DNA from: Bacteroidota bacterium | GTDB lineage: Bacteria; Bacteroidota; Bacteroidia; Bacteroidales; VadinHA17 | DNA length: 36,440 bases | Direction: 5' to 3' | Assembly: GCA_011049175.1 (NCBI GenBank) | Contig: DSCJ01000083.1 | Coordinates: 1-36,440, forward strand | In this document: positions 7,408 through 23,348 of the stretch, in pieces | Layout: each line of letters starts with the position of its first letter | Numbering within the stretch: position 1 is the first letter of the stretch | Position numbers and translations under genes: made by a program | The notes under the pieces: model-generated | Seen by the model: the letters and a program-made list of their open reading frames with translations, nothing else | The model's database searches: none | Told to the model about the DNA's origin: nothing

Positions 7408-8586
7408 TTATCTTTTTTTCCTGATTATTCCCGGAAGCCTGAGGGTGGCAAAAACCGCAAAAATGGCAAATATAGCGGTTATCTTAAACGTGGTTTCCAT
7501 GCCCAACTGATCGGATACATACCCAACCAGCAAAACCATGGTAGAATTGATGAAAAAATTAATGGTCATATAAACACCGTTTACAAATGACAGGTGTTCG
7601 GTTCTCAGTTCATGGATTATTGCCAGAAAAACCGGGGTTGGAGCCATCATGAAAAACCCCAGAACTACCAGTACCGGGATCGTGAACCATCCGCTGGTAT
7701 GTATAAATATCCACATCATAACCGGGGTTACCAGGGTAATTATAAACAGGGCTGTTTTTCTGCCAATCCGGTCAGATATATTTCCGGAATAAAACGTCCC
7801 GGCTGCTCCTGCCAGCTGAAGAATGGAAAGGGAAAGACCTGAAAATTCATAATTCCCGGTTCTCTGGGTGATAAATGTAGGAAGGTAAAAGGTAAGAGAT
7901 GATTTCATCCCGGCCTGAAAAAATGTAATTCCGGCAATGGCCATAAAAACCGGCAGGAACCTGACGAATATTTTCCAGTAATATCCTTTTTCCTTCTCGG
8001 TTGGAATATTCTTGCTGATGTTTACATGCCTCAGCTTAAGGAACAGAACGAGTGAAGCCAGCAGTCCAAGAGGTATCATCCGCCAGGTGCCTTCAATGCC
8101 CCAGATACTGACTATCCCAACAACAACCAGGGGGCCAAGTGTTCTGGCCAGTTCCCCGCCCAGCATAAAAAAACTCATGCCTCTGCCAACCCGGTTTCCC
8201 GATAGTTTCTTGATCATGACAGGAGCCGGAACATGAAACAGGGTGGAACTGACTCCGCTGACAAACAACAGGACGGTTAGGAAAATATACCCCGGCGCAA
8301 CACCGATCAGGCTCATAGCGATGGCTGTCAAGGCAGGCGAAAAAATCACAAAATACCGGGCCTTTACGTTTTCGGCCAGAATACCTACCAGAAAATTGAA
8401 CATCGAAGGGATTCTCTGAACAACTGACAGCATCCCGCCGAGGGTTGTGGAAAATCCCAGTTTATTCATTAACAGGGGAAGGGCCTGAGCAAGAAAGGCT
8501 GTGTATGTGTCATGCAGCAGATGGGCAGCAGAGATCAGATAAATGCCATGGTGGTCGCTCTTTCTGTTATCCTTTCCTGTCTTCAT
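7408..8586 (-). CDS. MFS transporter, Fsr-like
   Basis: This is a 392-residue major facilitator superfamily protein with about 12 membrane helices. The start AAHLLHDTYTAFLAQALPLL resembles the fosmidomycin-resistance (Fsr) branch. A conserved MFS loop occurs in the second half (SGNISDRIGRKTALF), and a charged cytoplasmic stretch (RHVNISKNIPTEKEKG) separates the halves. The substrate cannot be read from sequence. The gene follows pnp on the same strand after 14 nt, so the two are probably cotranscribed. That raises a purine or nucleoside-related substrate as an unproven possibility. Its stop lies 3 bp from the convergent lamin-tail gene stop. Confidence 0.85.
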   Translation of the reverse strand: MKTGKDNRKSDHHGIYLISAAHLLHDTYTAFLAQALPLLMNKLGFSTTLGGMLSVVQRIPSMFNFLVGILAENVKARYFVIFSPALTAIAMSLIGVAPGYIFLTVLLFVSGVSSTLFHVPAPVMIKKLSGNRVGRGMSFFMLGGELARTLGPLVVVGIVSIWGIEGTWRMIPLGLLASLVLFLKLRHVNISKNIPTEKEKGYYWKIFVRFLPVFMAIAGITFFQAGMKSSLTFYLPTFITQRTGNYEFSGLSLSILQLAGAAGTFYSGNISDRIGRKTALFIITLVTPVMMWIFIHTSGWFTIPVLVVLGFFMMAPTPVFLAIIHELRTEHLSFVNGVYMTINFFINSTMVLLVGYVSDQLGMETTFKITAIFAIFAVFATLRLPGIIRKKR

Positions 8587-10530: not shown

Positions 10531-12300
10531 TCAGTATAATTCAATGAAGTAGGGAAGTCGCGCCTGAATCCTGTCCATGGAAAGGATTTGCTGCAGGTTA
10601 ACGTAATGACGCGCCGCACCGCCAAGTTCTTTTTTTATCAGGCGCATGCTGACCTCGCCGGTCAGACTCTTCAACAGTTGTTCCATGGGATCGGGCTGTG
10701 CCGGAAGTTCCTTGATGTCCCAGGCTTCAATACCGGCGAGTTCTGCAGCCAGATCGATGGCTTCATTCAATCCTCCAAATCCGTCGATCAGGTGGATGTC
10801 CATGGCATTGATCCCGCTCCAAACCCTGCCTTCCGCAATTTCTTTTACTTTTTCCACTTCCATATCTCTTCCGTCGGCAACATACTGAACAAACTCTTCA
10901 TAGTTTTCTTCAATGCCTGCCTGCAAATATTCGCGTTCAGTGGGTTTCAGCGGCCGGTAAAACGATCCGAAATCAGCGTGTTCATTCGTTTTAACCACAT
11001 CGAAGGTGACGCCGATCTTGCGGGTGAGCAATTCCTGGGCGTTGGGAATAATTCCGAATACACCGATAGAGCCGGTAATAGTAACCGGGTTGGCCAGCAC
11101 GCGGGTTGCCGGAGCCAGGATATAATAACCTCCCGATGCTGCCACGTTTCCCATGCTGGCAACCACCGGCTTCACTTCTGATGATACCTTCACCTCTCTC
11201 CAGATGGCTTCTGAGCCGATTACACTCCCTCCGTGAGAATTTACCCTTAGTACGATGGCCTTAACAGAACTGTCGGCTCTGGCTTCACGAATGGCTTTTG
11301 CAATTTTACCGGGCTTCATACCGGTGGCTCCGCCGGTAAGATCCATGCCGATATCCCCCAGGGCATACACTACCGCTATTTTGTTATCCACAGGCTTTTC
11401 TTTTTTAACTTCTACTCCTGTGTATTTTGACATATTTACAAACCTGACCGATTGTGTTTCACTGAGGTCAGAAAGGTTGAGCAGTTCGTCAAGTAGTTCG
11501 TCTTCATATTTCAACCCGTCAATCAGACCCAGCCTGAGAGCATCATCGGCATTCTGGATTTCCAGATTGTCAGCAATCCGGTTCAATACATCGGCAGGAA
11601 TATTACGTTCTTCCTCAATGCCCTTCACCAGATAATCCCATATGGCTCCCATGTAGGTCATGATCTGTTCCCTGCTGGCTTCACTCATTTGTTCCTGAAT
11701 GAATGGCTCCACCGCGCTTTTGAATTTTCCATGTCGGATCACCTGCACTTCTACCCCCAGTTTTTCCAGGGCGTTCTTATAGAACATGATCTCCGAACGC
11801 AGTCCGTAAAACTGGAATTCGGTAATCGGACTGAGGTAGATCTTATCGGAAACGGTGGCCAGGTAATAGGCCGCATGGGAAATAAGTTCATCGGAATAAC
11901 TGACAATGAATTTCCCGGATTCTCTGAAATCAATCAGGGCGTTTCTGATCTCCTCCAGGGTGGCAAATCCGGGGCTCAAAGGCCCCAGTTCGATATAGAT
12001 TCCCCGGATGTTATCATCATGTTTTGCTTTTTCTATGTTTTTCAGAATATCGTTCAATCCTGCAGGTGTAGTAAATTCAAAGTTCAGTGGATCGAAGTTT
12101 TCAAAAGGATTGTTACTGGACCGATCGGGGATGGTTTGGTTCAAATCCAGTTTCAGTACAGAATTTTTTCGGATCACGGCAGGCTTTTGACCTGCTGACA
12201 ACATAGCACCGAATAGGATGAGCGAAATGAAGAAAATGATCACAGAAGAGACAAAAAAGCCCAGAATGGCTGCCAGGGTGTATTTCAGAAATTCTTTCAT
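10531..12300 (-). CDS. sppA: Signal peptide peptidase SppA (67 kDa type)
   Basis: SppA is a membrane-bound serine protease that degrades cleaved signal peptides in the periplasm. The 589-residue protein has one N-terminal membrane helix (about 7-35) and the tandem S49 domains of the long form. The general base Lys194 lies in FKSAVEPF of the first half, and the nucleophile Ser389 lies in NVAASGGYYI of the second half, matching the Lys/Ser dyad of the E. coli enzyme. The intervening VNSHGGSV loop is also present. Length is normal for the family. It ends in a strong terminator before lpxK. Confidence 0.95.
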   Translation of the reverse strand: MKEFLKYTLAAILGFFVSSVIIFFISLILFGAMLSAGQKPAVIRKNSVLKLDLNQTIPDRSSNNPFENFDPLNFEFTTPAGLNDILKNIEKAKHDDNIRGIYIELGPLSPGFATLEEIRNALIDFRESGKFIVSYSDELISHAAYYLATVSDKIYLSPITEFQFYGLRSEIMFYKNALEKLGVEVQVIRHGKFKSAVEPFIQEQMSEASREQIMTYMGAIWDYLVKGIEEERNIPADVLNRIADNLEIQNADDALRLGLIDGLKYEDELLDELLNLSDLSETQSVRFVNMSKYTGVEVKKEKPVDNKIAVVYALGDIGMDLTGGATGMKPGKIAKAIREARADSSVKAIVLRVNSHGGSVIGSEAIWREVKVSSEVKPVVASMGNVAASGGYYILAPATRVLANPVTITGSIGVFGIIPNAQELLTRKIGVTFDVVKTNEHADFGSFYRPLKPTEREYLQAGIEENYEEFVQYVADGRDMEVEKVKEIAEGRVWSGINAMDIHLIDGFGGLNEAIDLAAELAGIEAWDIKELPAQPDPMEQLLKSLTGEVSMRLIKKELGGAARHYVNLQQILSMDRIQARLPYFIELY

Positions 12301-19197: not shown

Positions 19198-19893
19198 TTA
19201 TTTATTCAGTGTTTTATCCAGGTGCTTGATAACCGATAGTAGCAGGTGCATATCTTTTTCCCCCAGCAGGGAGATACGTTCTCTGATGCGGTGGTACAGG
19301 GGCGTTCCTTTTAAGATTCCGATACGGTTCATGGAATCTTCTATTTTTCCTGTCAGTTGACGAAAACCCGGTTCCGGTCCTGTGGGCACCGGAGCAGGAG
19401 GTTTTTGGTTTATCTGAGACAATGACAGGGTATAGGCGATGACCATGACAGCCTGTGAAAGGTTCAGGGAAGGGAAAGTTGTTTGCATGGGGATATATAC
19501 CATTACATCACAGGCCCTGAGGTGGGCATTGCTCAATCCGCTTTCCTCTTTCCCGAATACAATACCTGCTTTCCTGATCATTGATTTCCTGCTTTTGAGA
19601 AAACCGGGCAATGTATCCAGGGCAAAATAATCCCAGTGTGCATTTTTGTGCTTTGCAGTTGTCCCTGCAACGAAATCGAGATCTTGAATGGCTTCTTCAA
19701 AGGTATCATATATCTCAGCCTGCTCCAGTATGTCATGTGAACCATGAGCCATAGTGAGGGCTTCCATACAAAGATGATCGGCGGGATTCACCATTCTCAT
19801 CCGCCGGAACCCCATGGTTTTAATGGCTCTGGCGCTGGCGCCGATATTGCCCGGGACAGCGGGTTCTACCAGTATGAAAAAGATTTCCGCCAA
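19198..19893 (-). CDS. TrmJ/TrmH-family (SPOUT) RNA methyltransferase
   Basis: The 231-residue protein has SPOUT methyltransferase motifs in order: FFILVEPAVPGNIGASARAI (motif 1, with the RNA-binding Asn and Arg), VFGKEESGLSN (motif 2) and IPMQTTFPSLNLSQAVMVI (motif 3 knot). This set is that of TrmJ, which 2'-O-methylates tRNA position 32. The C-terminal extension of about 60 residues also fits TrmJ. The start is a TTG at 19893; no in-frame ATG occurs upstream in a sensible position, and the MAEIFF N-terminus looks complete. It is divergent from the GroES-like gene. Confidence 0.85.
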   Translation of the reverse strand: MAEIFFILVEPAVPGNIGASARAIKTMGFRRMRMVNPADHLCMEALTMAHGSHDILEQAEIYDTFEEAIQDLDFVAGTTAKHKNAHWDYFALDTLPGFLKSRKSMIRKAGIVFGKEESGLSNAHLRACDVMVYIPMQTTFPSLNLSQAVMVIAYTLSLSQINQKPPAPVPTGPEPGFRQLTGKIEDSMNRIGILKGTPLYHRIRERISLLGEKDMHLLLSVIKHLDKTLNK

Positions 19894-19967: not shown

Positions 19968-19975
19968 TATCTTTG
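19968..19975 (+). promoter_or_regulatory. -7 element upstream of the GroES-like gene
   Basis: TATCTTTG exactly matches TAnnTTTG, 19 nt before the ATG at 19995. A -33 TTG is not visible. It suggests the interrupted gene still has a transcription start. Confidence 0.4.
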
Positions 19976-19994: not shown

Positions 19995-20378
19995 ATGGCA
20001 ATTATTCCCGACAAATCTGACCTGAACAGGTTCATCATGGTGGGCGACAGGGTGCTGATCAAGCCCAAAGCCGACCAGGTAAAAACCAAATAGGGATTGT
20101 ACCTTCCTCCCGGAGTGATGGAAAATGAAAAAATCCATAGCGGTTATGTGCTCAAAGTGGGTCCGGGTTATCCTGTTCCTACCCTGATGGATGAAAGTGA
20201 GCCCTGGAAAGGGAAATCGGAGGAAGTAAAATATGTCCCTTTACAGCCACATGAAGGTGATCTTGCCATTTACCTGCAAAAAAGCGGTTACGAAATCGAA
20301 TTCAACAGGGAAAAATATGTCATCGTCCCCTATTCGGCTATCCTGATGCTTATACGCGATGAAGGGTTGTTTGAATAA
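19995..20378 (+). pseudogene. GroES-like co-chaperone gene with one in-frame amber codon
   Basis: Reading from the ATG at 19995 gives 32 codons (ending VGDRVLIKPKADQVKTK), then TAG (20091-20093), then 94 codons in the same frame beginning GLYLPPGVMENEKIHSGYVL. The two parts join without gap into a 127-residue GroES-fold protein of the long Bacteroidetes type. It contains the usual VGDRVLIKP strand, GLYLPPG mobile-loop region, GYVLKVGPGYPVPT and GDLAIYLQKSGYEIEF. Family members usually have Ser or Gly at the TAG position; Ser TCG to TAG is a single change. No other lesion is visible. Possibilities are a recent nonsense mutation, an assembly or sequencing error, readthrough, or re-initiation at TTG 20097 or ATG 20118. 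TAG is used as a normal stop elsewhere in the window (lamin-tail gene), arguing against general reassignment. Confidence 0.85.
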
Positions 20379-22778: not shown

Positions 22779-23267
22779 TCAGGAACCTGTCACATCGATA
22801 ATATAGATGATCACCCCGCTGATCCCCAGGATCAGCGATTTGATGATGGTTCCGAATCGGATGACTTTTTGCGCCGGGAACCGGGTTTTTCTGATCAACA
22901 TGGCCAGTACGGCAATCAGAATTCCTACCGTGCCGATAATTAACAGGGGTCTGGCCAGCGGAAGGTTAATTAATGCAAAAATGATGCCTGCCAGAATAAG
23001 CACCACCAGGATGGCATTAACCCTGTACAGGAACCGGTCGGTTCCCTTTGCCGTTGATTCGGGCAAAGGAGCAAAAGCCGCCAGCAGGCTTAATAAGGCT
23101 GAAAGTCCCAGGCCTGCAAGGATCAAAAGGGTTCCGGATTTTTCCAGATAGATCAGTACACCTCCTGCTATGACCATCAGCAGGAAAAAGATATCATAAA
23201 CCAACTGGTACCTGAACAGGTGGATACCTGCCCGGTTGACCTGATTTTCGGCTGATTGATTTTCCAT
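22779..23267 (-). CDS. Hypothetical five-helix integral membrane protein
   Basis: The 162-residue product has five predicted membrane segments, at about 23-41, 46-66, 80-101, 107-125 and 142-159, with little else. It belongs to no family I recognise. The open frame extends upstream to ATG 23336 and TTG 23348, but a promoter candidate at 23318-23348 would place transcription inside that extension, so the ATG at 23267 (MENQSAENQ) is preferred. The patatin gene follows after 43 nt, so they may share a transcript. Confidence 0.7.
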   Translation of the reverse strand: MENQSAENQVNRAGIHLFRYQLVYDIFFLLMVIAGGVLIYLEKSGTLLILAGLGLSALLSLLAAFAPLPESTAKGTDRFLYRVNAILVVLILAGIIFALINLPLARPLLIIGTVGILIAVLAMLIRKTRFPAQKVIRFGTIIKSLILGISGVIIYIIDVTGS

Positions 23268-23317
23268 GGAATGATGTTTTTGTATTACATGATTGTTCCT
23301 TACCCTGAAGGTACGAT

Positions 23318-23348
23318 CAAAATTTATTATTTCCATGCCGGGAGTCAA
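23318..23348 (-). promoter_or_regulatory. Candidate promoter for the membrane protein/patatin run
   Basis: Minus-strand TTG (23346-23348), 20 nt, then AAATTTTG (23318-23325), one mismatch from TAnnTTTG. It favours the downstream ATG at 23267. Confidence 0.35.

Follow-up and report, generated by a model that had tools for sequence, protein, structure and literature searches.

The window, a 36,440-nucleotide stretch of a Bacteroidota bacterium genome taken as a whole, contains a gene for a GroES-like protein whose reading frame is interrupted at codon 33 by a single TAG, and the interruption is probably the outcome of a recent single nonsense substitution that inactivated a dispensable paralog in this genome. 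As such, the event is a candidate for a pseudogene formed very recently by a single nonsense change, which is a common kind. The coordinates of the gene, of the motifs within and around it and of its flanking genes are collected in Table 1.

Table 1. Features at the interrupted GroES-like locus, with positions counted from the first base of the window.
Feature	Position	Strand	Basis
Divergent neighbour, SpoU/TrmJ-type RNA methyltransferase, open	19198..19893	-	Domain matches
-7-like element TAnnTTTG, TATCTTTG	19968..19975	+	Unchanged in the intact relative L064
GroES-like (Cpn10) paralog, 127 codons, single interruption	19995..20378	+	Frame, Pfam, alignment of relatives
In-frame TAG, codon 33	20091..20093	+	Column aligned with TxSGL of solved Cpn10 chains
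TTG, candidate restart	20097..20099	+	Leu codon in 59/59 sequences with a residue there
ATG, candidate restart	20118..20120	+	Met common to the intact relative L064
Convergent neighbour, GNAT + carbon-nitrogen hydrolase, open in the window, broken in G060:C32	20432..21964	-	Comparison with relative

The frame consists of an ATG, 31 further codons, the TAG, 94 codons and a terminal TAA. An earlier note, made from the sequence alone, had joined the two parts into one full-length protein of the GroES fold, and this is borne out: when the stop is read through, the 127-residue translation scores 49.6 bits against the Pfam Cpn10 family (PF00166; cut-off 21.1), and the segment from the TTG at 20097 scores 26.7 bits by itself. 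Over most or all of its length the frame aligns with the 58 relatives in which codon 33 is occupied by a residue, and it is therefore not a chance one. A profile built from 11 family members retrieves solved Cpn10 chains and places the stop column within their TxSGL stretch, which we take to be the mobile loop of GroES, in agreement with the location proposed earlier.

Like GroES/Cpn10 co-chaperonins, the paralog has a Cpn10 domain, recognisable on either side of the stop, and its family profile matches solved Cpn10 chains. It is, however, longer than GroES (127 residues against about 95-100), with an extra stretch past residue 59. All 11 of the NCBIfam GroES models that match score below their cut-offs, the best reaching 44.5 of the 96 bits needed, and the gene lies away from groEL, between genes of the TrmJ and nitrilase types. 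The fold family is Cpn10, and on both score and position the protein falls outside canonical GroES. A search of the literature found no description of this GroES-like paralog.

Across the bacterial family, matches at E <= 0.001 were found in 79 of 117 genomes; two of these (G023 and G064) had weak matches only, leaving 77 with the paralog, among them the window's own genome (G000). A stop within the match occurs in none of the other 76; for most of them this follows from the stops counted in the search, and for those retrieved as loci from the alignment. The alignment comprises 60 distinct sequences including that of the window, the weak or partial L032, L033 and L098 and the duplicates L071 and L075 having been left out. 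At codon 33 it has Ser in 47 sequences, Thr in nine, Ala in two and the stop in the window, the position being missing from one partial sequence. The expectation that relatives would carry Ser or Gly there thus held for Ser (47 of 58) but not for Gly (0 of 58). As a disabling lesion the stop is confined to the window, being absent from the 59 other distinct sequences as well as from the matches of the 76 other genomes, and degradation of the downstream part in relatives, which the earlier note had envisaged as speaking against its reading, was likewise not seen among the 60 distinct sequences. Three apparent irregularities are of another kind: the X characters of L089 are codons containing N, the one TAG counted in G047 (L031) is a few residues from the C-terminus and outside the mobile loop, and two TAA codons counted in G021 belong to a weak 27% match at another place.

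The paralog can be absent. No match was found in any of the four genomes examined of genus g10 (G010, G019, G027 and G032), which are 96-98% complete; this shows that the gene can be lost, and suggests loss across a whole genus. The only other genome of the window's genus in the set, the 80% complete G001, has no match to the DNA of the locus and is uninformative. As to the gene neighbourhood, 34 loci were compared within at most 3 kb on each side, a span sometimes cut short by a contig end; apart from the nearest relative, none of them (33 of 34) had any of the four neighbours (PHP, TrmJ, nitrilase and patatin genes) in that span.

The nearest relative is the sequence DRPN01000093.1 of isolate HyVt-56 (L064), which appears to correspond to contig C32 of genome G060. 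It is collinear with the window over approximately 13.8 kb in two blocks, of 89.8% and 92.8% DNA identity, between which the relative has about 650 extra bases, absent from the window, lying between the PHP and TrmJ genes (about 2035-2680 of L099, on G060:C32). Its GroES-like gene is uninterrupted and has, in place of the TAG, a Ser codon that differs from it by a single base, as the earlier note had supposed. G060 has 7% contamination, carries a second GroES-like copy of 72% identity on contig C61 and is labelled as another genus; for the first two of these reasons the bin is possibly mixed, and C32 may have strayed into it from an organism more closely related to that of the window. The convergent GNAT-nitrilase gene, open in the window, is broken in G060:C32, where it carries multiple in-frame stops as well as a change of frame (about 3996-5526 of L099); eight stops were counted, possibly an overcount given two overlapping tblastn pieces. 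There, an intact GroES-like gene lies beside a broken nitrilase, the reverse of the arrangement in the window. Within the window, a shorter start of the neighbouring gene at 22779-23348 was checked as a possible further lesion and was not convincing.

Constraint on the gene has been retained on both sides of the stop. Between the window and L064, the part preceding it has accumulated six synonymous and three amino acid changes (dN/dS 0.11) and the part following it 14 synonymous and two amino acid changes (dN/dS 0.03); by comparison, seven genes nearby on the same pair of contigs have ratios of 0.09 to 0.31. Judged from these substitutions, strong purifying selection evidently acted on the gene up to the very recent past. 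Relaxed constraint, as would mark an established pseudogene, is not seen in the post-stop ratio of 0.03, and this is what is expected of a lesion that is very young, not real or not fatal; the retained downstream constraint points to one of the three, without separating them. A control proved weak: the nitrilase that is broken in G060:C32 still gives a dN/dS of 0.24 against the window, inside the range of the open genes. Under a model of equal branches and neutral change past the stop, a lesion as old as 20% of the branch leading to the window should have brought 6.1 amino acid changes where at most two were seen (P 0.06), and one as old as 30% should have brought 9.1 (P 0.006), such that on these simple assumptions its age would lie below about one fifth to one quarter of that branch. 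The intact closest relative with its Ser codon, the low post-stop ratio and the absence of a second lesion favour a nonsense allele, and of the explanations originally offered it is fresh decay that they fit best.

The same picture would be produced by an error of consensus or sequencing, or by a mixture of strains, in what is a draft assembly of 139 contigs, the organism's own gene being intact. The stop rests on a single assembly, the codon differs from that of the relative by one base, and the gene around it looks fully constrained, all of which agree with such an error. Single-base consensus errors are nevertheless rare at ordinary coverage, and the genes compared with the relative elsewhere in the window give no sign of poor sequence. 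The assembly also contains other genes with single stops, although errors could explain those too. On balance an error is unlikely, if a serious contender.

A stop within conserved coding sequence is also what would be observed were TAG reassigned to an amino acid throughout the genome, and two further in-frame TAG codons, in the GH43 genes described below, would accord with this. Yet in the 1.24 Mb sampled TAG ends 96 of 739 open reading frames of at least 200 codons, release factor RF1 (prfA) is present with a match of 505 bits rather than lost, and none of 77 matches to the sulfatase (6), ABC (41) and TonB-plug (30) domains contains a stop. TAG is an ordinary terminator in this genome, and genome-wide reassignment is refuted. 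A survey of genetic codes puts some spurious stop codon inferences in yeasts down to pseudogenes (PMC8629427).

Natural readthrough or weak suppression of UAG, giving some full-length protein, was another of the options proposed earlier. The undecayed post-stop part would fit, as would the pair of GH43 genes elsewhere in the assembly that each have one TAG inside the domain, but the presence of RF1 and the 77 domain matches free of stops stand against readthrough as they do against reassignment. No CTA anticodon occurs among 38 tRNA family matches (37 with a named anticodon, the weak 38th having no CTA triplet), a set that is incomplete, lacking for instance a Ser tRNA for AGC/AGT, so that a tRNA of this kind may have been missed. 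Nor is this a conserved readthrough site, since the stop is absent from all the relatives compared. Readthrough, left with no positive support, is improbable. The confinement of the stop to one of the 77 genomes, the ordinary use of TAG as a terminator and the presence of RF1 instead favour a nonsense allele. A weak tRNA-like element was seen at 556-633 of L106 (G000:C46:23055-23132), with a score of 33.8 bits and no call from ARAGORN under its default settings; it sits inside a long perfect stem followed by Ts, and may be a degenerate tRNA or a terminator.

Other interrupted genes were sought in 1,236,440 bases (38% of the 3,240,290-base assembly), made up of the window and 60 stretches of 20,000 bases, by listing stops flanked on both sides by coding-like sequence, a criterion that recovered 1129 of 2217 synthetic interruptions. 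The 33 stops listed (17 TAA, 11 TGA and five TAG) include that of the window. When the other 32 were scanned with Pfam, along with two passed by earlier filters in the first 436,440 bases (L114:1526 and L124:11205), a domain ran well across the stop in two of the 34, both of them TAG codons in GH43-like genes. One is a GH43/BT_3657-like gene (L124 10470-11441, on G000:C12), whose domain spans the TAG at 11205; the other (L154 10302-11621, G000:C2:70302-71621) has its TAG at 10593, within the GH43 domain. GH43 matches containing a stop amount to one of nine in this genome and none of nine in five relatives. A propeller/SpoIIE sensor gene (L130 6311-8743, on G000:C18) has a single in-frame TGA at 8180, which, judged by eye and with no Pfam domain spanning it, is a probable interruption. 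Domains extending 24 residues beyond a TAA (L137:5176) and, as a weak second domain, beyond a TAG (L142:18088) were judged to be over-extensions; L115 and L144 matched no family in the Pfam scan, and the remaining candidates look like adjacent genes.

Besides that of the window, the clear or probable interruptions therefore number two TAG, one probable TGA and no TAA. That both other clear domain-internal stops in the sample are also TAG counts against a simple nonsense allele. A lineage that tolerated in-frame amber codons in the GroES-like and two GH43 genes through readthrough of UAG, the GroES-like product being made partly as a 32-residue peptide and partly in full length, would fit the pattern; we consider this very doubtful. 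The excess of TAG is small, no conclusion can be built on it, and chance or mutational supply could give it. The other single-stop genes in the assembly, together with the missing paralog in all four genomes of genus g10, favour a nonsense allele here.

In-frame start-type codons lie closely downstream of the stop, raising a further option, that the gene is now split into a 32-residue peptide and a second product restarted at the TTG (93 residues) or the ATG (86 residues). Both codons predate the stop, however, the TTG encoding Leu in every one of the 59 sequences that have a residue at that position and the ATG being present in the intact relative; there is thus no sign that a split gene has evolved. 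The fragments would also be expected, from the Cpn10 alignment, to cut the fold near its N-terminal strands. This earlier proposal is weakened accordingly, and a split protein is very unlikely. Upstream, the -7-like element that had been noted is still present and is conserved in the intact relative. Its pattern, that of the Bacteroidota-type -7 motif, is matched 26 times over the two strands of the window, and the element alone consequently says little.

If the stop is a nonsense allele, ribosomes would be expected to terminate at codon 33, as TAG is normally used, leaving a peptide of 32 residues that lacks the greater part of the fold, and the function of the paralog would be lost. The earlier note had raised the possibility of a second groES beside groEL, and one exists: a canonical groES (G000:C4:71033-71296) adjoins the only Cpn60 match in the genome (C4:69425-70921), and a further GroES lies at C60:3430-3687, both free of stops. 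The GroES-like paralog itself is single, the second match to it being the canonical groES on C4. Its loss may be tolerated because these copies remain, and intact and nonsense alleles may still coexist in the population. Against this, most genomes of the family have the paralog, which argues that its loss usually carries a cost, and decay would likewise be absent if readthrough kept the gene active.

Recently formed bacterial pseudogenes described in one study (PMC13345370) are similar in that the remaining frame and the promoter region are intact around the lesion; those come from endosymbionts with very many pseudogenes, unlike the one stop in one gene seen here from sequence only. According to the same study, transcripts of the endosymbiont pseudogenes persist and few give detectable protein. 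Should the TAG prove an error, the locus would be a caution against calling pseudogenes from a single draft assembly. If the lesion is real, a GroES-like paralog that most of the family retains would have been caught at the very beginning of its loss, which would suggest that a bacterium can do without an additional co-chaperonin.
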